This document shows positions 2,901 through 36,687 of a stretch of 64,000 bases of DNA, piece after piece. Every line of letters begins with the position of its first letter. Position 1 is the first letter of the stretch. The position numbers and the translations under genes were made by a program. The DNA comes from a virus, in IMG/VR virus record IMGVR_UViG_3300012964_000002, positions 1-64,000 of that record; one strand, 5' to 3'. The notes under the pieces were generated by a model, which worked only from the letters and a program-made list of their open reading frames with translations, was not told where the DNA came from and did no database searches.

Positions 2901-3272
2901 TCAGAACGAGAATCTGAGCCCGCCGAGAACCACCGCGTTGGATGTCACGGCGCTGATCTCCACCACGATGGTCGCGTGCTGCCACCAGCGCCGCCACGGG
3001 TTCGGGAGGAGGAGCGACGCCGCGGCGTGCCCCACCACCGCGCCGGTCACCATCGCGTCGAGCCTGGCCTGTGACGGGTGCGGTCCGATCACGGGGTTCT
3101 GCTCGGCGGCACCGCGCTTCAGCGACCAGCGTGTCTGCTGCCAGTCCAGGAACACCAGCCCGACGAACGCCGCCTCCCGCGCCGTGTCCGCCGTGGTCCA
3201 CTCCTCCGCCGTTGCCGGGAACGGCGGGATCAGCAGCGTCGCCACCGTCAGAAGTAGGATCGTCGATCTCAC
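2901..3272 (-). CDS. exported multi-helix membrane protein
   Basis: 123 residues. Begins with a signal-peptide-like segment (basic RS, hydrophobic ILLLTVATLLIPPFPATA, possible cleavage before EEW). The mature part has a FLDWQQTRW segment and a NPVIGPHPS motif followed by hydrophobic helices, a pattern I associate with small phage and bacterial membrane proteins of the DUF5658 sort. GTG at 3272 overlaps the upstream stop by four bases. A role in the envelope or lysis is possible. Confidence 0.55.
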   Translation of the reverse strand: MRSTILLLTVATLLIPPFPATAEEWTTADTAREAAFVGLVFLDWQQTRWSLKRGAAEQNPVIGPHPSQARLDAMVTGAVVGHAAASLLLPNPWRRWWQHATIVVEISAVTSNAVVLGGLRFSF

Positions 3273-3556
3273 GACCGCCCCCTCTCCGCGCGCCGGAGCG
3301 GCGCGCACGTCGAGCACACCTTCATGCCGTCGATTTCCTCGTCCGCCGAAGCCTTGTGGCAGCGTCCGCACATCGCCACCACCGGGAGCGGCGTCGGCGT
3401 CGTCCTCGCCGCCTCGACCGCGCGCTGGCAGCGGTCCGCGAGGCGCTGGAGGAACCGCGCGTGGCCCTTGTCGTCCTGCGCGTAGTTGTTCGCCTCGCGG
3501 GAGAGGGCCCAGCCCGCGTCGTTCAGGAGGGTGACGATGTGCTTGGGAACGGTCAT
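3269..3556 (-). CDS. small zinc-ribbon protein
   Basis: 95 residues. An N-terminal helical half (VPKHIVTLLNDAGWALSREANNYA) is followed by a zinc ribbon made by MCGRCHKAS and KVCSTCA at about residues 63-86, then a basic tail. ATG at 3556 was chosen; upstream sequence in this frame has no coding character. It sits just downstream of the AAA+/VWA pair and could be an accessory of it, but that is inference. Confidence 0.6.
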   Translation of the reverse strand: MTVPKHIVTLLNDAGWALSREANNYAQDDKGHARFLQRLADRCQRAVEAARTTPTPLPVVAMCGRCHKASADEEIDGMKVCSTCAPLRRAERGRS

Positions 3557-3567
3557 GACGATGATCC

Positions 3568-4941
3568 TCAGTCGTCCATCTCGAGCTGCTCGCCCCAGGA
3601 GCACGGGGCCCTGCGGTGCTTCCCGACCAGCAGCCAGATGACCCGGATCCCGACCGGCGGCCCCGCCGGGCAGGCGCCGTCGCCGTCCGTCACGAAGATG
3701 ATGACCTGCGGGCGCGGCTTGCGCGCGGAGGCCATCTCGAAGGCGGGCCGGAAGTCGGTGCCGCCTCCGCCCTTGAGCAGCGGGAGGATCTCCTGCCACG
3801 TCTTCACCGTCTTGACCTCGTGGACCGCCGCGTCGGCCGCGGCGAACGTGACGCGCGCGGAGGTGCGGTTCAGCACCCCCTTGATCTCACGCAGCCCCGC
3901 CGTGAGCTCGGAGGTCCCCATCGAGCCGGAGGTGTCGACCACGCACATCACGTCGGGCTTCGGCGCGACGAGCGCGGGGAGGACCGGGCGCCCGGGGCCG
4001 AACCCGACCCCGCCCTGGCGGCGGGACGGCGCCCGGTACTGGTAGTCGACCGCGCCGGACGCCCACTCGACGGCGCCGCGCGCGATCTTCGCCAGCTTCG
4101 TCTGCCACGGGATCTTCGGGGCCGCGAGCTGCGTCTCCGCCCAGCGCATCCAGCCGCCCGGCATGCTCCCGCGTCCCTTCGACGCCTCCGCCTTGATGGC
4201 CTCCGCGACGTCGCGGCGCACGCGCTCCAGCTCCGCCTGCGTGCGCCCCTTCCCGTCCGCCTCGGGCTCGTTCGGGAGCGGGCGGCCGGCCCCGGATCCG
4301 CACCACCCGGCGCCCGGCTTCTCGCCGGAGCCCCGATCCTCTCCCTCGCCATTCCCGCCGCCGTTCTGCGGGTCGTTGCCGCCCTTCCCCTTGCCCTTCC
4401 CGCCGCCGCGCTTCGGCGGCGGCTGCTTCTGCATCCGGTCCCGCAGGGCCTCCCAGTACGACTCGGCCATCTGGCCGTCCGGCATCCCGCCCGGCTCGTC
4501 GAAGATCCGGAACAGCGTCTTCGGGAAGACGGGCACGAACGGCCCGCCGGTCACGCCGACCTTGGGAAACTCCCAGACTCGCCCGTCGTCCGGGATGTCG
4601 TCGTTGATCTCGGCGTCCGCGGCGTGGTTCCACAGGAGGCGCTCGCCCGGGTCCTTGATGCCGTGGTGCTCGCAGCGCCCTCCGTGGCGGCGGAGGACGT
4701 GCCACGCCTCGTGGAAGAGGGCCGTCGCGCCCTGCTTCACGGTCCAGACGAGGCGGAGGTTCGGGTCGTAGACCATCTTGCCGTCGTCGGTGACGCCCAT
4801 CGTGCCGAGACCCTCCACCTCCCTCGGGACGAGGGAGAGGAGGACGGCCGTCATGCAGGAGGCGTTGCGCCGCGCGTAGAGACGGCAGGCCGCGAGCCAC
4901 TCGCGGCCGGTCTTGTAGGTGGTTGCCGGTGCGGTGCTCAT
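3568..4941 (-). CDS. metallopeptidase-like / VWA-domain protein (DUF2201 type)
   Basis: 457 residues. The N-terminal domain has a zinc-protease-like motif HEAWHVLRRH at about residue 77, as in the DUF2201 N-domain (COG3864). A Gly/Lys/Pro-rich linker follows (about 185-235). The C-terminal von Willebrand A domain carries a complete-looking MIDAS motif DTSGSMGTS near residue 335 and an IIFVTDGDG strand further on. The gene lies five bases downstream of a MoxR-type AAA+ ATPase. Such pairs are known in bacteria (compare RavA-ViaA), where the ATPase remodels targets presented by the VWA partner. Its target in this phage is unknown. Whether the HExxH-like site is catalytic cannot be told. Confidence 0.85.
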   Translation of the reverse strand: MSTAPATTYKTGREWLAACRLYARRNASCMTAVLLSLVPREVEGLGTMGVTDDGKMVYDPNLRLVWTVKQGATALFHEAWHVLRRHGGRCEHHGIKDPGERLLWNHAADAEINDDIPDDGRVWEFPKVGVTGGPFVPVFPKTLFRIFDEPGGMPDGQMAESYWEALRDRMQKQPPPKRGGGKGKGKGGNDPQNGGGNGEGEDRGSGEKPGAGWCGSGAGRPLPNEPEADGKGRTQAELERVRRDVAEAIKAEASKGRGSMPGGWMRWAETQLAAPKIPWQTKLAKIARGAVEWASGAVDYQYRAPSRRQGGVGFGPGRPVLPALVAPKPDVMCVVDTSGSMGTSELTAGLREIKGVLNRTSARVTFAAADAAVHEVKTVKTWQEILPLLKGGGGTDFRPAFEMASARKPRPQVIIFVTDGDGACPAGPPVGIRVIWLLVGKHRRAPCSWGEQLEMDD

Positions 4942-4945
4942 CGCG

Positions 4946-6106
4946 CTACCCCTGCCGTCCGGAGCGGAGGACCGGGAACAGCTTGGCGAGCACCGGGATG
5001 GCCTCCTTGGTGGTGTGCAGCTTCGCGTCGACCAGGGCAGTCGCGGCCGGCTCCGTGATGTCCGGGGTGGTCTTGGCGACCTCGCCGACGATGCCCCAGA
5101 GGCGCGCCGTCCGGTCCTTGCGGCGCTCCGCCTGCGCGGGGGAGACGAGCGCGGCGCAGGCGCCGAGGACGGCCACCGTGCGGTCCAGGCGGTCCGGGTC
5201 GTGCTCGAAGCTGACCTTGCCGTCGAGGACGGCCACCGGGTCCGGGAGGTTCGCCTTGGCGAGCCAGTCGGCGTACTGCGACGCGGCCGCCTGCCCGACG
5301 AACGCGGCGAGGAGGAGGTCCGTGTCGTCCTCGGAGAGCCCGTGGACGACGGCGCCGGCGAGAGCGCGCAGGCCCAGCTCCCAGGAGCGCGGGGACGGCC
5401 AGGCGCGGCCGCGGGCGGGGTCGCCGTCCGGCGGCTGCTTGTAGAGCAGGGACGGGTACGCGCGGAGGAACGCCGTGACGCGCCCGCTAGCGACCGCGAG
5501 CGCCTCGGGCCACGCCTTCATGACGCGCGCCTCCTCCTTCGCCGCGTCGAGCGGCTCCTCGTCGGCCGCGCCGCCGTTGCAGCCGGAGAGCGCCCAGGAG
5601 GTCCACTCCTCGACGCTGGGGGCCGGCCACTCGAGGTGGCCCATCCGGTTCGCCTCCGCCGGGTCCATCTCGTACACGCCGGGCGCCGTCTCGACCGGGT
5701 TCGCGGCCGCGACGACCCGGACGTGCCCGCCCAGGTAGGAGGAGCCGATCTGCAGCTCGTTCACGAGGCCGAGGAGCGGGGGCTGGATGGCGGGCGCCGC
5801 GCGGTTGATCTCGTCCACGAAGACGATACCGCGCGTCCCGTCCTTGAAGTGCTCGATCCAGTCGGGCGGCGGGTAGAGGAGGCGCGAGCCGTCCGGCGTG
5901 GGCATCGGGACGACGCCGAACGCACCCTCCCCGCGGGAGCCTGGGGAGAGGGTCTCGACGTGCGCGAAGCCGAACTCCGCGGCCGCGTGCTCGATGACCG
6001 TGGTCTTGCCGACGCCCGGGCCCTGCCACCAGCACACCGGGAGTCCCCAGCGACCGCGACGACCGGGGGTGAACCAGAGGGCCTTGAGGATCTGCTTGGT
6101 GCTCAT
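4946..6106 (-). CDS. MoxR-family AAA+ ATPase
   Basis: 386 residues. Walker A is GPGVGKTT (residues 29-36); Walker B and the following Asn/Arg are GIVFVDEINRA (93-103); a VVAAANPVE sensor-1-like segment lies near 150. These place it in the MoxR/AAA_5 group of remodelling ATPases. It is the upstream partner of the VWA/metallopeptidase gene (gap of four bases), so the two are almost certainly translated together and act as a complex. The ATG at 6106 starts right at the first conserved helix. Possible roles include maturing a metalloprotein or dismantling a host complex; neither is shown. Confidence 0.88.
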   Translation of the reverse strand: MSTKQILKALWFTPGRRGRWGLPVCWWQGPGVGKTTVIEHAAAEFGFAHVETLSPGSRGEGAFGVVPMPTPDGSRLLYPPPDWIEHFKDGTRGIVFVDEINRAAPAIQPPLLGLVNELQIGSSYLGGHVRVVAAANPVETAPGVYEMDPAEANRMGHLEWPAPSVEEWTSWALSGCNGGAADEEPLDAAKEEARVMKAWPEALAVASGRVTAFLRAYPSLLYKQPPDGDPARGRAWPSPRSWELGLRALAGAVVHGLSEDDTDLLLAAFVGQAAASQYADWLAKANLPDPVAVLDGKVSFEHDPDRLDRTVAVLGACAALVSPAQAERRKDRTARLWGIVGEVAKTTPDITEPAATALVDAKLHTTKEAIPVLAKLFPVLRSGRQG

Positions 6107-6146: not shown

Positions 6147-6452
6147 TTACCGCGACTGCCTGATCTTTCCGTGGATCTCCGCGTACTCGCTCGCGACCTC
6201 GTGGTACAGCTGCGCCGTCTCCGGAGTCAGCGCGCTCGCCCAGGCGTGGAGCGCCTGGCCGTAGCGTTGCAGGATCTCCAGGGACGTCATCTTCGCCGCC
6301 GCCGCGCGGAGGAGCGCGCGCTGCTCGATGGTCATGCCGGGCGCGGCGGCGCACGCCTCGTGGACGACCTCTCCGCTCCGGAAGACGACCGGCGTGCGGT
6401 CGTAGTCGTCGGACGGGAGAGGCTCGCGGCAGATGTGGCAGGTGTCGGTCAT
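6147..6452 (-). CDS. small protein with N-terminal CxxC
   Basis: 101 residues. It starts with TDTCHICREPL, has a second Cys in a VVHEACAAAPG segment (together a possible treble-clef zinc site), then a long helical C-terminus (SLEILQRYGQALHAWASAL). ATG at 6452 is preceded by a GGAGGA element. No family recognised. Confidence 0.6.
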   Translation of the reverse strand: MTDTCHICREPLPSDDYDRTPVVFRSGEVVHEACAAAPGMTIEQRALLRAAAAKMTSLEILQRYGQALHAWASALTPETAQLYHEVASEYAEIHGKIRQSR

Positions 6453-6466
6453 GTCAGTCTCCTCCT

Positions 6467-7030
6467 TCAGTGCGCCATGCCCGTTTCCCAGCACGACCCC
6501 TCGCCGGCGGTCACCCAGTCGCCGCACTCCTCACACTCGTAGCGCGTGCCGGGGCGGCGCTCGCCGTCATGCTCGCGCTGGTAGCGGTACTCCTCCGCGA
6601 GCCGGTCGAGCTTCGCGATCGAGAGCGGCTCCCGGTAGGTCTTGATGATCTGGACCTCGGGGCCGTCCGCCCAGAAGACCTTGCTTCCGTCGCGGAAGCA
6701 GAGCTTGGCGGCCGGGCCGCGCTTCGTCTCGCCAGACCACAGGAGCAGGTACGTCTTGCCCTTGTACGCGGCCTTCCCCCGGATCACGGCGGCGGACTTG
6801 TCCACGCCCTCCGTGCGCTCGCGCTCGTTCCGCTGCTCGATGGCCGTGTCAGCCGCGCCGATCGCCCCTTCCGCGACCTCACGCTTGGCGGTCCACCACG
6901 CTCGCTGCTCGGGGTCCCAGTGCGCCCCGGCGTTCCGGAGCCGGTCCTTGATCGGGTAGGTGTTCCCGCGCAGGTAGTGGCGGCGGCCCACGGTCTCGAT
7001 CGTCACGCTCGTCGTTGTCTTGATCGTCAT
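6467..7030 (-). CDS. hypothetical protein with a DUF5710-like N-terminus
   Basis: 187 residues. The N-terminal segment RHYLRGNTYPIKDRLRNAGA followed by WDPEQRAWW resembles the short module in which a nucleic-acid- or nucleotide-processing enzyme checks a G-x-x-Y-P-x-K stretch (DUF5710-like). The middle is mixed alpha/beta. The end has a zinc ribbon (ECEECGDW and a later Cys). The gene sits near the start of the leftward operon. Function unknown; the family comparison is tentative. Confidence 0.5.
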   Translation of the reverse strand: MTIKTTTSVTIETVGRRHYLRGNTYPIKDRLRNAGAHWDPEQRAWWTAKREVAEGAIGAADTAIEQRNERERTEGVDKSAAVIRGKAAYKGKTYLLLWSGETKRGPAAKLCFRDGSKVFWADGPEVQIIKTYREPLSIAKLDRLAEEYRYQREHDGERRPGTRYECEECGDWVTAGEGSCWETGMAH

Positions 7031-18655: not shown

Positions 18656-20379
18656 GCCAGATCGTCCTGTCGAAGGGCCTCAGGCTGCCGGCGGAGGTGG
18701 TCACCCAGACCATCGGCATCCTCGGGCGGCGGGGCTCCGGGAAGACCACGACCGCGAGCGTGCTCGTGGAGGAGCTGCTGCGCGCGAAGCTGCCGTTCGT
18801 GATCATCGACCCGACCGACGCGTGGTGGGGGCTCAAGGCGTCGAAGGACGGCAAGGACGAGGGGTTCCCCGTCACGGTGCTCGGCGGCGACCACGCCGAC
18901 GAGGTGCTCGAGGAGACGGCCGGCAAGATCGTCGCGGACCTCGTGGCGGAGGCGGCGCCGCCTCTCGTCCTCTCCCTGTCGGCCCTCTCCGGAGCGGCGC
19001 AGCGCCGCTTCGTGCGCGACTTCTGCGAGCGGCTCTACGAGAAGAACAGGACGGCGCTCCACGTCGTGATCGACGAGGCCGACGAGTTCGTTCCGCAGCG
19101 TCTGTTCCGGGACGCGCTCGCGGTCTTCGGCGCGGTCGACAAGCTCGTCCGGCGCGGGCGCAAGAACGGCATCGGCGTGACCCTGATCTCGCAGCGCTCG
19201 GCGGCCATCAACAAGGACGTCCTGAGCCAGTGCGAGGTGCTGATCGCCCACCGCGCCTCCCACCCGACCGACATCGAGCCGGTCCTGAAGTGGATGGAGG
19301 TGCACGCGCGGAGCCGCACGGAGGAGGTTCACGGGTCGATCGCGCACCTGGCGGACGGCGAGGCGTGGGTGATGAGTCCGGAGTGGCTCGGCGTCTTCGC
19401 GCGCGTCCAGATGAACGACCGCACGACGTTCAACTCCAGCGCGACGCCGAAGCCCGGCGTCAGGCTGGTCGAGCCCAAGAAGCTGGCGAAGCCGGACCTC
19501 GCCGTGCTCCGGGCGCGCATGCGGGACTCCATCGAGCGCGCGCGGGCGAACGACCCGAACGCGCTCAGGACGCGCATCGCGGAGCTGGAGCGCGCGGCCG
19601 CCGAGAAGGCGCCGCCCCCGCCTCCGGAGGTGAGGACCGTCGAGGTTCCGGCCCTCCCCGCGGCGGACCTGGCGCACCTCGACAAGCTGGCGGATCGGCT
19701 GATCGTGGCGCAGGACCGGCTGGCCCAGGCGCAGCAGGTCGTGGCGACCGAGCTCGGCAACCTCTCGAGCCGCGTCCTGTCGCTGAAGACCGCTCTCCAG
19801 GGCGCGCCGCGCAACGGCGCTCCGATTCCCCCCGCGCGGCCGCCGCCCGCTCCCCGCCTCGTGGCGTCGCGGCTCGGGACGCGCCGGGAGCGGGCGGCGG
19901 AGTCGGAGGAGGCGGGGGAGCTCAAGAAGGGGCAGCGTGTGATGGTCGCCGCCCTCGCCGGCGCGGGCGGGTCGCTCGATCGGCAGACGCTGGCGGTCTG
20001 GTCGTGCATGCGGCAGTCGGGCACCTTCACCGACTACCTCTCCAACCTCCACACGCGCGGGCTCGTCGAGAAGGGGGAAGACGGGCGGGAGCACCTGACG
20101 GAGGCGGGGCGCGCGTCCGGGATCTCCCCGTGGCGTCCGACCCCGGGCGAGATCGTCGCGGCTTGGAAGGAGCGCCACCTCAAGGGCGGGCAGGGCGCGA
20201 TGCTCGACGCGCTGATGAGGTTCGCTGGCGAGGGTGGGCTCGCGCGTCCCGCTCTTGCCGCCGAGGTGGAGATGGCCGAGAGCGGCACCTTCACTGACTA
20301 CCTCAGCTTCCTGCGGACCTCCGGCCTGGTCGAGAAGAGGGACGGGCGCGAGGCGCTGTCGCGGAGCGTTCTCGGGTGA
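18652..20379 (+). CDS. HerA-like (DUF87) DNA-translocase ATPase with duplicated C-terminal module
   Basis: 575 residues. Walker A GRRGSGKTT (25-33), Walker B ALHVVIDEADEF (about 137-148) and a later ISQRSAAIN sensor segment match the HerA/FtsK branch of DNA pumps. Residues 300-430 form coiled coil and Pro-rich linker. The C-terminus holds two copies of one module, SGTFTDYLSNLHTRGLVEK near 456 and SGTFTDYLSFLRTSGLVEK near 544, probably winged-helix DNA-binding units. HerA often works with the nuclease NurA in end resection; no NurA was seen, but SbcC/SbcD are encoded downstream. ATGA overlap with the previous gene. Confidence 0.8.
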   Translation: MSQIVLSKGLRLPAEVVTQTIGILGRRGSGKTTTASVLVEELLRAKLPFVIIDPTDAWWGLKASKDGKDEGFPVTVLGGDHADEVLEETAGKIVADLVAEAAPPLVLSLSALSGAAQRRFVRDFCERLYEKNRTALHVVIDEADEFVPQRLFRDALAVFGAVDKLVRRGRKNGIGVTLISQRSAAINKDVLSQCEVLIAHRASHPTDIEPVLKWMEVHARSRTEEVHGSIAHLADGEAWVMSPEWLGVFARVQMNDRTTFNSSATPKPGVRLVEPKKLAKPDLAVLRARMRDSIERARANDPNALRTRIAELERAAAEKAPPPPPEVRTVEVPALPAADLAHLDKLADRLIVAQDRLAQAQQVVATELGNLSSRVLSLKTALQGAPRNGAPIPPARPPPAPRLVASRLGTRRERAAESEEAGELKKGQRVMVAALAGAGGSLDRQTLAVWSCMRQSGTFTDYLSNLHTRGLVEKGEDGREHLTEAGRASGISPWRPTPGEIVAAWKERHLKGGQGAMLDALMRFAGEGGLARPALAAEVEMAESGTFTDYLSFLRTSGLVEKRDGREALSRSVLG

Positions 20380-20582
20380 GCGACTGGGGCGGAGACGGGG
20401 GGAGTGCCGTCAAGCCCAGGTGGCTCACGCGGGCGGAATCCGTGGCGTGGCACGGCGTGGACCCGGACGCGCTCCCGCACGGCGTCGCCATGAGCAAGCT
20501 GGTGCCGTGCGGCGTGTGGTGGGAGCGGGTGTGGCTCGCGGACGACGTGCTGGCGGAGGCGGAGAGGAGACGCAAGAGATGA
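20376..20582 (+). CDS. small hypothetical protein
   Basis: 68 residues. A Trp-rich body (WLTRAESVAWHGVDPDALP, WWERVWLADDVLAEAE) with a basic C-terminus. GTGA overlap with the ATPase gene and ATGA overlap with the methyltransferase gene. The WLT start recalls the large paralogous array but the C-terminal signature is missing, so it is not included there. Confidence 0.5.
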   Translation: MSDWGGDGGSAVKPRWLTRAESVAWHGVDPDALPHGVAMSKLVPCGVWWERVWLADDVLAEAERRRKR

Positions 20583-22105
20583 GACCCCCGGTGCTGAGGA
20601 TCGGGCTCGACGAGATCGTGGCGGACAACTTCGCCGGCGGCGGCGGGGCCTCCGCCGGAATCGAGATGGCTCTGGGGCGCGGTCCCGACATCGCGATCAA
20701 CCACGACCCGGAGGCCATCGCGATGCACCGCGCCAACCACCCGGGGACGCGGCACTTCTGCGAGAGCGTCTGGAAGGTGGACCCGGAGGAGGTCTGCGGA
20801 GGAAAGCGCGTCGCGCTCGCGTGGTTCTCGCCCGACTGCAAGCACTTCTCCAAGGCCAAGGGAGGGAAGCCGGTCGAGAAGAACGTGCGGGGCCTCGCCT
20901 GGGTCGTGATCCGCTGGGCGCGCGCGGTGAGGCCCCGCGTCATCGTCCTCGAGAACGTCGAGGAGTTTCAGGACTGGGGACCGTTGACGGAGGACGGGCG
21001 GCCGGACGCGCTCCGGCGCGGGCTCACGTTCCGGCGGTGGCTCGGGTCCCTCCGCAACGCGGGGTACGAGGTCGACATGCGCGAGCTCCGCGCCTGCGAC
21101 TACGGCGCGCCGACCACGCGCAAGAGGCTGTTCGTGATCGCGCGCTCGGACGGGCTGCCGATTGTGTGGCCGGACCCGACGCACGGTCCGCCGCTGACGG
21201 GGCTGCCGCCCTACCGCACGGCGGCCGAGTGCATCACCTGGGAGCTGCCCTGCCCGTCCATCTTCGAGCGCGAGAGACCGCTCGCCGAGAACACCCTCCG
21301 CCGGATCGCGCGCGGCCTCCGGCGGTACGTCATCGAGAGCCCGGACCCGTTCATCGTCTCGAACATGACGAACAACGTGCCGCGCCCGGTGAGCGAACCC
21401 ATCACGACGGTCCTGACCGGCAACCACAAGTTCCTAGTCGCGCCAGCGCTCGTTCAGCAGAGCTGGGGCGAACGGGAGGGACAAGCCCCGCGCGCTCTCG
21501 ACCTTCACAAGCCGCTCGGCACGATCATGGCCGGAGGTGTCAAGCACGCGCTCGTCGCCGCGTTCCTGGCGAAGCACTACGGGGGGCACGGGGCGACCGG
21601 CTCCAGGCTGGCCGACCCGATTGACACGGTGACTGCGGTCGACCACCACAGCCTCGTGGCGTCCCACCTCCTGAAGCTGCGCGGCGGGCTCGAGGACCAC
21701 CAGGTGACGGCGCAGGACCTTCGCGGCCCGGCGCCGGCGATCACGGCCGGCGGGACGCACCTGGCCGAGGTCCGCGCGTTCCTGCTCTCCTACTACGGCA
21801 GCCCGGTCGACGCGCGGCTCCGGTCGCCGCTTCACACCGTCACGTCCAAGGACCGCTTCGGGCTCGTGACGGTGCGCGGCGACGAGTACGTGATCGCGGA
21901 CATCGGGATGCGGATGCTCGTCCCGCGCGAGCTGTTCCGCGCCCAGGGATTCCCCGAGTCGTACCTGATCGACGTCGAGCTGGACGGACGGCCGCTCTCC
22001 AAGAGCGCGCAGGTGCGGATGGTGGGGAACAGCGTCTGCCCGCCGCTCGCGGCCGAGATCGTCCGCGCGCAGTTCCGGGCGCGAGGCGCTGCCGAGGTCG
22101 CGTGA
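20579..22105 (+). CDS. DNA cytosine-C5 methyltransferase
   Basis: 508 residues. Motif I FAGGGGASAG (18-27), motif IV as FSPDC (C87 is the catalytic cysteine) rather than PPC, motif VI ENV (125-127), motif VIII DYGAPTTRKRLFVIA (about 178-192) and motif X GNSVCPP (about 483-489) are all present, so it should be active. The SPDC variant is common in phage enzymes. A long region between VIII and X (about 270-440) would hold the target-recognition domain. It transfers a methyl group from SAM to cytosine. With the two TAGT-like genes at 35030 and 35800 it could supply 5-methylcytosine for further modification. ATGA overlap upstream. Confidence 0.9.
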   Translation: MRPPVLRIGLDEIVADNFAGGGGASAGIEMALGRGPDIAINHDPEAIAMHRANHPGTRHFCESVWKVDPEEVCGGKRVALAWFSPDCKHFSKAKGGKPVEKNVRGLAWVVIRWARAVRPRVIVLENVEEFQDWGPLTEDGRPDALRRGLTFRRWLGSLRNAGYEVDMRELRACDYGAPTTRKRLFVIARSDGLPIVWPDPTHGPPLTGLPPYRTAAECITWELPCPSIFERERPLAENTLRRIARGLRRYVIESPDPFIVSNMTNNVPRPVSEPITTVLTGNHKFLVAPALVQQSWGEREGQAPRALDLHKPLGTIMAGGVKHALVAAFLAKHYGGHGATGSRLADPIDTVTAVDHHSLVASHLLKLRGGLEDHQVTAQDLRGPAPAITAGGTHLAEVRAFLLSYYGSPVDARLRSPLHTVTSKDRFGLVTVRGDEYVIADIGMRMLVPRELFRAQGFPESYLIDVELDGRPLSKSAQVRMVGNSVCPPLAAEIVRAQFRARGAAEVA

Positions 22106-35033: not shown

Positions 35034-35803
35034 CCGGGGCTCTCCCGCGCTACCCCGTGTACGTGCTCTCCAAGGGCAGGAGCGACCGCTGCCTGACGGC
35101 GAGGTTCCTGCTCCGCGACGGGGTGCCGTTCATCATCGCCGTGGAGCCGCACGAGGCCGACCTGTACGCCGCGGAGTTCGGGCGCGAGCGCCTGCTGATT
35201 CTCCCCTTCCGCGACGCCGGGACCGCCACGCCCGCGAGGAACGCCGTCAAGGAGCGCTCCGTCGCGGCTGGCGACGCGAGGCACTGGCAGCTCGACGACA
35301 ACATCCGAGGAATCCGAGGCTACGTCGACGGCAAGCGCGTCCGGGTGAGGGGCGGGCCGGCGCTCCGCGAGGTCGAGGAGCTGGTGGACGGCTACGAGAA
35401 CGTGGGCATCGCGGGCCTTCAGCACACCGTCTTCCAGGACCGCTCGCGGCCGTTCCTCGTGAACCGTCAGGTCTACTCGTGCGTGCTGGTGGACAACCGT
35501 CTGCCGTTCCGCTGGCGCGGGGTGGCGCACCACGACACCGACTACTCTCTTCAGGTGCTCGTGGCCGGCCACTGCACGATCCTCGTCTGCGCCTTCGGCA
35601 TCGAGAAGGCACAGACCATGTCGATGAAGGGCGGGATGACCGACGCCTACCTGGGCGACGGGAAGCTGCGGAAGGCCCACGAGATCCAGCGGCGGTGGCC
35701 CGGGCGCGGCATCAAGATCGTGCGGCGCAACGGCGTCCCAAGCGCCAGCATGGGGCGCGTCTGGTCGAAGTTCACCACCCCGCTGCGCCCGAGGTCCCCG
35801 TGA
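35030..35803 (+). CDS. TET-associated-glycosyltransferase-like protein (TAGT), copy 1
   Basis: 257 residues. LPRYPVYVLSKGRSDRCLTA at the start, HWQLDDNIRG near 86-95, VGIAGLQHTVF near 124, VYSCVLVDNRLPFRWRG near 147-163, and HDTD (167-170) with SMKGG near 190. These match what I recall of phage TAGT proteins, which add sugars to modified bases. A second copy follows at 35800, overlapping by four bases. This would suit glycosylation of 5-hydroxymethylcytosine or a related base. No TET/JBP dioxygenase was found in the window. Homology is recognised by eye, and the catalytic chemistry is not proven. Confidence 0.7.
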   Translation: MTGALPRYPVYVLSKGRSDRCLTARFLLRDGVPFIIAVEPHEADLYAAEFGRERLLILPFRDAGTATPARNAVKERSVAAGDARHWQLDDNIRGIRGYVDGKRVRVRGGPALREVEELVDGYENVGIAGLQHTVFQDRSRPFLVNRQVYSCVLVDNRLPFRWRGVAHHDTDYSLQVLVAGHCTILVCAFGIEKAQTMSMKGGMTDAYLGDGKLRKAHEIQRRWPGRGIKIVRRNGVPSASMGRVWSKFTTPLRPRSP

Positions 35804-36687
35804 CGCTCCCGCGCTACCCGGTGTACGTGATCTCGAAGGGGCGGCATGACTGCTGCCTGACCGCCCGCGCGTTCGTGAAGGATGGGGTGCCCTTCCGCCT
35901 GGTGGTGGAGCCGCAGGAGCGGGAGCTGTACGCGCGGGAGTTCGGGGGCGGCCCGCTGCTGGTGACGCCCTTCTCGAACCTCGGCCTGGGCTCGATCCCC
36001 GTCCGCAACTTTGTCTGGGAGCACGCGAAGGCTTCCGGCGCGGAGCGGCACTGGATCTTCGACGACAACATCTCCGGCATCTGGCGCCGCTGGAAGGCGC
36101 GGAAGATCCGGTGCGAGGCCGGCGTCGCGCTCGCCGCCTCCGAAGACTTCGTCGACCGCTACGAGAACGTCGCGATCGCGGGCCTCAACTACTACATGTT
36201 CTCGGTGAACAAGACGAAGCAGCCGCCCTTCTACCTGAACGTCCACGTCTACTCGGCGCTGCTGATCCTGAACGACCTGCCGTTCCGCTGGCGCGGCCGC
36301 TACAACGAGGACACCGACCTCTGCCTCCAGGTGCTCTCCGCCGGCTGGTGCACGGTCCTCTTCAACGCCTTCCTCGCGTGGAAGATGACGACCATGACGA
36401 TGAAGGGCGGGAACGCGGCCGAGCTCTACAAGGGCGACGGGCGCCTCAAGATGGCGCGGTCGCTCGAGCGGGCGTGGCCGGGCGTCGTCACGACGCGGCG
36501 CCGCTTCCGCCGCCCGCAGCACGTCGTGAAGGGAGCGTGGCGCGGGTTCGACACGCCGCTCAAGCTCAGGCCGGGCGTGGACCTTTCCGCGCTTCCGAAG
36601 GTGGACGAGCGGGGGATGGAGATCGTCCGCGTGAAGGAGATCCGGAGCGCGGAGCTCAGGCAGATGGTCGAGGAGCGGGAGAGGTGA
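35800..36687 (+). CDS. TET-associated-glycosyltransferase-like protein (TAGT), copy 2
   Basis: 295 residues. Same layout as copy 1: LPRYPVYVISKGRHDCCLTA, HWIFDDNISGI near 84, VAIAGLNYYMF near 124, LPFRWRGRYNEDTD with the acidic triplet at 169-173, and TMKGGNAAELYK near 203. A C-terminal extension of about 40 residues (FDTPLKLRPGVDLSAL onward) distinguishes it. The copies are clearly diverged, so they probably act on different substrates or steps. GTGA overlap upstream, and a GTGA overlap into the first array gene downstream. Confidence 0.72.
   Translation: MTLPRYPVYVISKGRHDCCLTARAFVKDGVPFRLVVEPQERELYAREFGGGPLLVTPFSNLGLGSIPVRNFVWEHAKASGAERHWIFDDNISGIWRRWKARKIRCEAGVALAASEDFVDRYENVAIAGLNYYMFSVNKTKQPPFYLNVHVYSALLILNDLPFRWRGRYNEDTDLCLQVLSAGWCTVLFNAFLAWKMTTMTMKGGNAAELYKGDGRLKMARSLERAWPGVVTTRRRFRRPQHVVKGAWRGFDTPLKLRPGVDLSALPKVDERGMEIVRVKEIRSAELRQMVEERER

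Follow-up and report, generated by a model that had tools for sequence, protein, structure and literature searches.

A phage gene pair of a MoxR-type ATPase and a DUF2201 protein with a probable zinc peptidase domain: a possible remodelling protease of virion morphogenesis

The NorQ-NorD, RavA-ViaA and CbbQ-CbbO systems each combine a MoxR ring with an adaptor that bears a von Willebrand factor A (VWA) domain and its metal-ion-dependent adhesion site (MIDAS). For NorQ-NorD, the available portions of two reports (PMC13036017, PMC9976466) describe a hairpin "finger" of NorD that enters the pore of the NorQ MoxR hexamer, a VWA C-terminus that touches the ring, a MIDAS that is required for the target, and a rotation that strains the linker to the N-terminal domain, and a pre-VWA hairpin and the VWA C-terminus are candidate contacts in this class of machine. 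The available text of the NorQ/NorD paper searched makes no use of the word metallopeptidase. In viruses, an arrangement of this kind has already been described for jumbo phages of group 2.2 (Iyer et al. 2021, PMC7824862, available text) and is annotated in many phages. This study addresses such a pair in a stretch of viral DNA of 64,000 nucleotides, called the window here, which comprises bases 1-64,000 of the 89,426-base IMG/VR virus record IMGVR_UViG_3300012964_000002. The pair occupies 3568-6106 on the minus strand and consists of a MoxR-type AAA+ ATPase and a DUF2201 protein with a metallopeptidase-like and a VWA domain. The original prediction had named it a MoxR ATPase with a VWA/metallopeptidase partner, and the motifs, the conservation and the folds of the ATPase and the VWA half bear this out. 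We propose, tentatively and with somewhat less than even confidence, that the pair is an ATP-driven protein-remodelling protease, acting most likely on a phage protein involved in virion morphogenesis (assembly or maturation). Such a target would differ from the substrates of NorQ-NorD, RavA-ViaA and CbbQ-CbbO, which the same kind of partial text gives as respiratory or metabolic enzymes.

Among the closest described systems is the group 2.2 MoxR-vWA pair, with the same two proteins in the same domain order (PMC7824862, available text). Unlike those phages, the window phage is of 89 kb and not jumbo, and its VWA protein falls in a separate clade of six rows (aligned sequences; support 100, quick tree). 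Phage N4, the best-known phage example, likewise encodes an ATPase, gp24, followed by a DUF2201 protein with HExxH and MIDAS, gp25, but these share only 21-22% identity with the window pair, and the window's record has no called open reading frame (ORF) of the size of the N4-type virion RNA polymerase (the largest is 863 aa). Cellular pairs of DUF2201 and AAA proteins keep the order seen in the window, whereas the His and Glu of HExxH are often lost in them (34/75 rows). Acidianus two-tailed virus p618/p892 is also a viral MoxR and VWA pair, and ORF892 weakly matches the window VWA model (6e-6, TM 0.24); according to the available text of Iyer et al. (PMC7824862), this pair is without a peptidase domain. 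The two genes of the window are as follows.

4946-6106, minus strand: MoxR-type AAA+ ATPase gene, 386 aa, ATG start with AGGAG upstream (Pfam, PHROG, profile and model).
3568-4941, minus strand: DUF2201 protein gene, 457 aa, ATG start with AGGGG upstream (Pfam, PHROG and model).

The DUF2201 gene lies 4 bases downstream of the ATPase gene, and each is preceded by a ribosome-binding-like sequence. The region is 72-74% GC and carries ORFs of 480 and 414 aa antisense to the pair; since long chance ORFs are common at such a composition, ORF length is no proof of a gene. That the pair consists of chance ORFs in GC-rich DNA is ruled out by the Pfam matches, by a G+C of 0.97 at the third codon positions of each gene, and by the comparison with the nearest relative found (78% and 68% amino acid identity), where nonsynonymous divergence (dN) is 0.18 and 0.26 against a synonymous divergence (dS) of 1.01 and 1.16. 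The pair also matches PHROG 1314 (2e-51) and PHROG 1297 (4e-31), while NCBIfam gave 0 matches for it.

The 386-aa protein matches Pfam AAA_3 at a borderline level (4e-6, 27.0 bits, exactly the cut-off of 27). A profile of 13 ATPases finds, in the PDB, Midasin (9e-31), the MoxR-like protein 2r44 (3e-9) and RavA (2e-8). The nearest fold of the predicted model (predicted local distance difference test, pLDDT, 91.7) is 2r44 (Z 15.5, root-mean-square deviation 5.2, 256 residues aligned), followed by the Mg-chelatase BchI (Z 14.2) and RavA (14.1), with MCM rows within 1 of both and with MCM helicases placed first in Foldseek's own ranking. By its motifs, its sequence and fold relatives and its VWA gene partner, the protein is a MoxR-type AAA+ ATPase, and by analogy it would form a hexameric ring. 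Residues K34, D98, E99, N136, R154 and R240 are invariant across the 13 aligned ATPases; in the wider set the Walker A lysine is kept in every row with a residue at that position, and there are small exceptions at D98 and E99.

6002-6022, minus strand: Walker A motif GPGVGKT, residues 29-35; K34 in 85/85 viral rows having a residue there.
5810-5824, minus strand: Walker B motif, ending in D98-E99; D98 in 84/86 and E99 in 81/86 viral rows having a residue there.

The 457-aa partner matches Pfam DUF2201_N (PF13203, putative metallopeptidase; 5e-26, 92.3 bits against a cut-off of 23.2) and, C-terminal of it, DUF2201 (PF09967, VWA-like; 4e-21, 75.7 bits against a cut-off of 26.4). Its layout is thus an N-terminal metallopeptidase-like domain, a flexible linker and a C-terminal VWA domain. 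The model has a pLDDT of 79.6, with values below 50 at residues 131-148 and 192-219, and its VWA half resembles integrin-type I domains and complement factor B (Z about 14). The N-terminal domain is probably a zinc peptidase: the HEAWH motif is predicted within helix 68-83, after strands 38-58, the candidate third zinc ligands H86 and D109 are conserved, and the N-terminal profile weakly matches the M48 peptidase 3c37 (2e-4) and BepA (0.0025). The MIDAS of the protein is complete (DxSxS...T...D). In front of the VWA core, a predicted beta-hairpin carries a conserved P-[NS]-[RK]-[RK], and its position 307 holds R or K in 98% of the 104 viral and named rows against about 65% of 80 cellular rows; likened to the NorD finger, this hairpin is a candidate to enter the ATPase pore. 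Set against NorD, the candidate matching parts are this hairpin before the MIDAS strand, a conserved glycine near the C-terminus and the low-confidence linker; the difference lies in the N-terminal domain, which in the window's protein is probably a zinc peptidase.

4699-4713, minus strand: HEAWH zinc motif, residues 77-81, placed by sequence and row conservation.
3967-4047, minus strand: predicted beta-hairpin before the VWA core, residues 299-325, with strands 299-303 and 321-325.
3922-3936, minus strand: MIDAS motif DTSGS, residues 336-340 (D336-S338-S340), completed by T395 at 3757-3759 and D419 at 3685-3687.

PHROG 1314 carries the label "HNH endonuclease", which is found on N4 gp25, S-TIM5, SBP1, XC38 and others. 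The domains found contradict an HNH nuclease identity for the DUF2201 family, with no Pfam HNH domain in the window protein (E<=0.1) or in five phage relatives (E<=0.01), and the label is probably wrong. In SBP1 an HNH_3 gene (9.7e-13) separates the two genes of the pair, and our guess is that the mislabel spread from an intervening HNH gene of this kind.

The Asp, Ser and Ser of the MIDAS are kept in 93/93 viral, 80/80 cellular and 11/11 named rows. The Glu of HExxH (E78), among rows having a residue there, is kept in 91/92 viral rows and 10/11 named phages against 48/76 cellular rows, and the His and Glu are both kept in 87/89 viral against 41/75 cellular rows. The relatives are the 80 most similar to a query that carries HExxH, which may favour retention of the motif in both groups, although the relative search patterns were without HExxH. 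On a tree of 164 rows, His-Glu is lost in 36, comprising 34 of the 75 cellular rows and two of the 89 viral rows (L030 and Littlefix), and these losses need at least 11 changes; retention counts of this kind are inflated by shared ancestry. Twenty loci were left out of the tree as truncated, from the same contig or judged near-copies, among them L062, L149, L151, L157 and L163, which have no residue at HExxH. Because His-Glu is kept in viral rows and often lost in cellular ones, the peptidase is probably active in phages. The earlier claim that both parts are active, made from the conserved HEAWH and MIDAS, finds support in the motifs and their conservation and may be kept at the level of probable.

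The same pattern bears on the unlikely explanation that the pair acts, as NorQD does, as a metal-insertion or cofactor chaperone for a phage metalloenzyme, with an HExxH that binds metal without cutting. NorQD inserts iron (PMC13036017, PMC9976466, available portions), the ATPase model lies near the Mg-chelatase BchI and RavA, and the cellular rows that lose His-Glu in 34 of 75 cases still keep H81, H86 and N113 in 76/76 and D109 in 75/76. Phages, however, almost always keep the catalytic Glu, which metal binding alone would not demand.

Pairs of this type are common in phages. The window's own queries match 89 phage records with the ATPase and 166 with the VWA protein. With the Phosso proteins as tblastn queries against 50,697 phage records, 787 records contain a relative of the ATPase and 699 a relative of the VWA protein, counts that include duplicate records and, for the ATPase, possibly other AAA+ paralogues. 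In IMG/VR, at least 581 stretches encode a relative, among 600 matches listed. Looking for pairs in related phages, the check put forward with the original prediction, has thus been strongly positive. The ATPase gene lies 5' on the same strand in 84/93 viral rows (two contigs being counted twice) and in 70/80 cellular rows, of which the "opposite strand" rows L149 and L157 are spurious low-score matches. The other nine viral rows comprise six without an ATPase in the available DNA, two with it downstream and one with it on the opposite strand. In 12 of the 14 annotated phage records examined, the ATPase gene precedes the VWA gene on the same strand, either directly or with other genes in between; in PVP-SE1 the pair is divergent and about 4 kb apart, and phiKT1024 has no ATPase annotated within 4 kb of its VWA gene. 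In Phage G, gp569 as the VWA protein is ruled out by alignment, and the homologue is gp576. The cellular pairs occur in genomes of Proteobacteria, Campylobacterota, Acidobacteriota and Euryarchaeota, in the same order and usually close. The pairwise distances of ATPase and VWA protein correlate at r 0.93 in 82 viral rows (0/1000 permutations as high) and 0.95 in 70 cellular rows, as would be expected of partners diverging together, with no control for general relatedness.

Two third-gene families accompany many of these pairs. F1 (sub-threshold DUF3150) is often found between or beside the pair in phages and cells (L024, L105; cellular L170, L173, L187), and F2 (sub-threshold Nmad5) in phages (L018, L022). 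Neither F1 nor F2 has a match in the window's record (best E 0.6), so a conserved third partner from these families is ruled out as a part of the machine in this phage.

The carrier is a contractile-tailed bacterial virus of 89.4 kb. The first and last 123 bases of its record are identical, an exact terminal repeat between window position 1 and the record end at 89426, and because of this repeat the record is probably complete, as a circularised assembly. Matches to PHROG include a terminase (2e-55), a portal (1e-10), a major head protein (1e-13), a tail sheath (3e-8), a tape measure (3e-8) and a baseplate protein, and a replication set of DNA polymerase, helicases, primase, RecA/UvsX-like protein, single-stranded DNA-binding protein (SSB) and SbcC/SbcD. 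The window also encodes a TET-associated glycosyltransferase (TAGT, PF20691, 9.5e-46) at 35761-36687 on the plus strand and a C5-cytosine methyltransferase at 20339-22105 on the plus strand, which together make a DNA hypermodification pathway possible; a Tet_JBP search of the record gave no match, and control genomes gave none in the same search either.

A search of 50,697 phage records gave two distant matches to the portal and 0 to the sheath, and a close named member of the lineage was not found. On the VWA tree, the window clusters with L002, L098, L102, L099 and one contig of a Polyangiaceae metagenome-assembled genome, which make up the clade mentioned above. A related portal is common to eight records, the window counted. 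The pair is present in all four of those that reach its expected place, namely the window, G001, G003 and G005, and the four others (G006-G009) are records of 11-40 kb without the pair which, judged by the positions of portal and polymerase, would end before that place. G003 has both the structural and the replication genes of the window, and in it the two genes of the pair are divergent yet neighbours. In the available texts, the pair is among 14 core genes of 25 N4-like phages (PMC4193335), and a later N4-like panproteome recovered gp24 by two of three methods and gp25 by one (PMC7650795).

Such a distribution speaks to the proposal, made in the original prediction, of a takeover or anti-defence machine, one that would reshape or destroy proteins of the host. 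This we consider improbable. The pair does sit in a cluster of small unknown genes and its peptidase motif is kept in phages, but with its broad distribution it looks core-like rather than like a patchy accessory, cells carry the same pair, and neither protein matches any PADLOC family at E<=0.1 (PADLOC being a library of defence, not anti-defence); no positive evidence for this role was obtained. Nor does the pair head its operon, as had been suggested, because two small ORFs lie 5' of it on the same strand. The small neighbours are listed below, and scans for promoters and terminators gave nothing above chance.

6467-7030, minus strand: small ORF 5' of the pair, 187 aa, with a DUF5710 match below cut-off.
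6147-6527, minus strand: small ORF 5' of the pair, 126 aa, with no confident family.
3269-3556, minus strand: small ORF directly 3' of the pair, 95 aa, CxxC...CxxC; start chosen by eye, the listed ORF start being 3799.

The relative G001 bears on the target of the pair. It has a structural module in common with the window (tail sheath 71%, major head protein 68%, portal 67%), with which the pair persists: the ATPase, at 78%, is the most conserved match of G001, and the VWA protein is at 64%. A tblastn search of G001 at 1e-5 with the window proteins gave no match for DNA polymerase, SbcC, SbcD, helicase, primase, RecA or SSB, and in their place it carries genes for RecT, RecE-like and DnaC-like proteins. 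G001 has further features of its own. At L190:9623-12481, it encodes a type IV CRISPR Cas7 (Csf2, 1.7e-44) and a Cas11-like protein (1.5e-6), with a PAPS-reductase/CysH-like gene about 0.65 kb beyond, a module which we take to be type IV-B-like. About 0.85 kb 3' of the G001 VWA gene, a lipoprotein-like ORF (L192:12112-12585, minus strand) carries its own HEFGH motif and has no Pfam match at E<=0.01.

In the machine that we propose, the MoxR-type ATPase would build a ring and the DUF2201 protein would serve as its adaptor. The C-terminal VWA/MIDAS would dock on the ring and on the target, with the finger possibly seated in the pore; the ring would then pull or twist the MIDAS-bound target and offer it to the peptidase, and the N-terminal zincin-like domain, with zinc presumably bound, would cut it on its flexible linker during remodelling. 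A tethered peptidase of this kind would differ from Clp and FtsH, which are closed-chamber proteases. A virion target agrees with annotated structural or tail genes within 5 kb of the pair in 121Q, S-TIM5, phiKT1024 and PVP-SE1, and with a head-decoration gene in N4. For the fused MoxR-vWA/metallopeptidase arrangement of jumbo phages, a role in virion assembly is put forward in the available text of Iyer et al. 2021 (PMC7824862), which also cites a tail-assembly role of the MoxR-vWA pair of Acidianus two-tailed virus. In the Staphylococcus jumbo phage DC4, by the part of that report available, a MoxR-like ATPase encoded beside a metallopeptidase gene gave one peptide in virions by liquid chromatography-mass spectrometry. 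A search of the full-text literature, with subscription papers mostly outside it and some sources available in part, found no published function of a phage DUF2201/MoxR pair, and no experiment on one beyond the DC4 peptide; neither "phage N4" nor MoxR occurs in the main text of the CRISPRi-ART paper.

Several observations weigh against this reading. The single DC4 peptide was accompanied by GroEL, and its authors ask for confirmation. The available lists of virion proteins for RPP1/RLP1 show no homologue of the pair, and in those for rV5 the pair is not mentioned. In the window, the pair belongs to a group of small genes that runs leftward and lies apart from the structural genes, which run rightward. 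Its zinc site is a candidate, and the distance correlation is the uncontrolled one given above. G001 may be a fragment, so its absent replication genes may be just unsequenced, and simple linkage may explain why the pair stays with the structural module. In N4, gp24 and gp25 are transcribed as middle genes (PMC4193335, available text), and the next gene after the pair is a dCTP deaminase. A DNA helicase gene adjoins the pair, as the next gene after it, in XC38 and Littlefix and is next but one in SBP1, with a DNA polymerase further on in two of these three. From 78 viral loci, 171 neighbours of at least 170 aa were taken, of which a maximum of four per cluster left 130 and 105, all from other contigs, were scanned; among the matches listed (the best 25 of 94 PHROGs and 25 of 41 Pfam families), the named families are exonuclease, sigma factor, helicase, thymidylate synthase, rII and the like, and 0 are structural; one neighbour weakly matches "minor head protein".

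Much of this would suit the same machine with another target, a replication or transcription complex of the phage or the host in the middle phase of infection, which is a serious though rather unlikely alternative. It draws on the N4 middle transcripts, on the adjoining helicase genes, on the presence, close to the pair in five phages, of thymidylate synthase, dCTP deaminase or MazG, and on the exonuclease, helicase and sigma-factor families among the neighbours. However, gene position is weak evidence of function, and G001 keeps the pair with no shared replication gene found, with the reservation that G001 may be a fragment. Virion morphogenesis is slightly favoured over middle-phase replication or transcription, and the target is the least certain part of the proposal.

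Relative to the available text of Iyer et al. 2021, the data on HExxH retention, on co-divergence and on the structural module are new. Relatives of the pair occur in roughly 700 of the 50,697 phage records and in N4, a phage with E. coli K-12 as its model host. Many phage genes would gain a sounder annotation from correction of the "HNH endonuclease" label. The near-invariance of HExxH in phages, together with its frequent loss in cells, gives the sharp prediction that the peptidase matters in phages. More tentatively still than the proposal for the window itself, the pair may represent a new protease layout, in which a peptidase is tethered to the VWA adaptor of a MoxR ring in hundreds of phages, the N4-like included, and cuts phage proteins to drive virion morphogenesis. 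If this is true, the MoxR-VWA chaperones, a class whose mechanism is just becoming understood, would gain a proteolytic variant.

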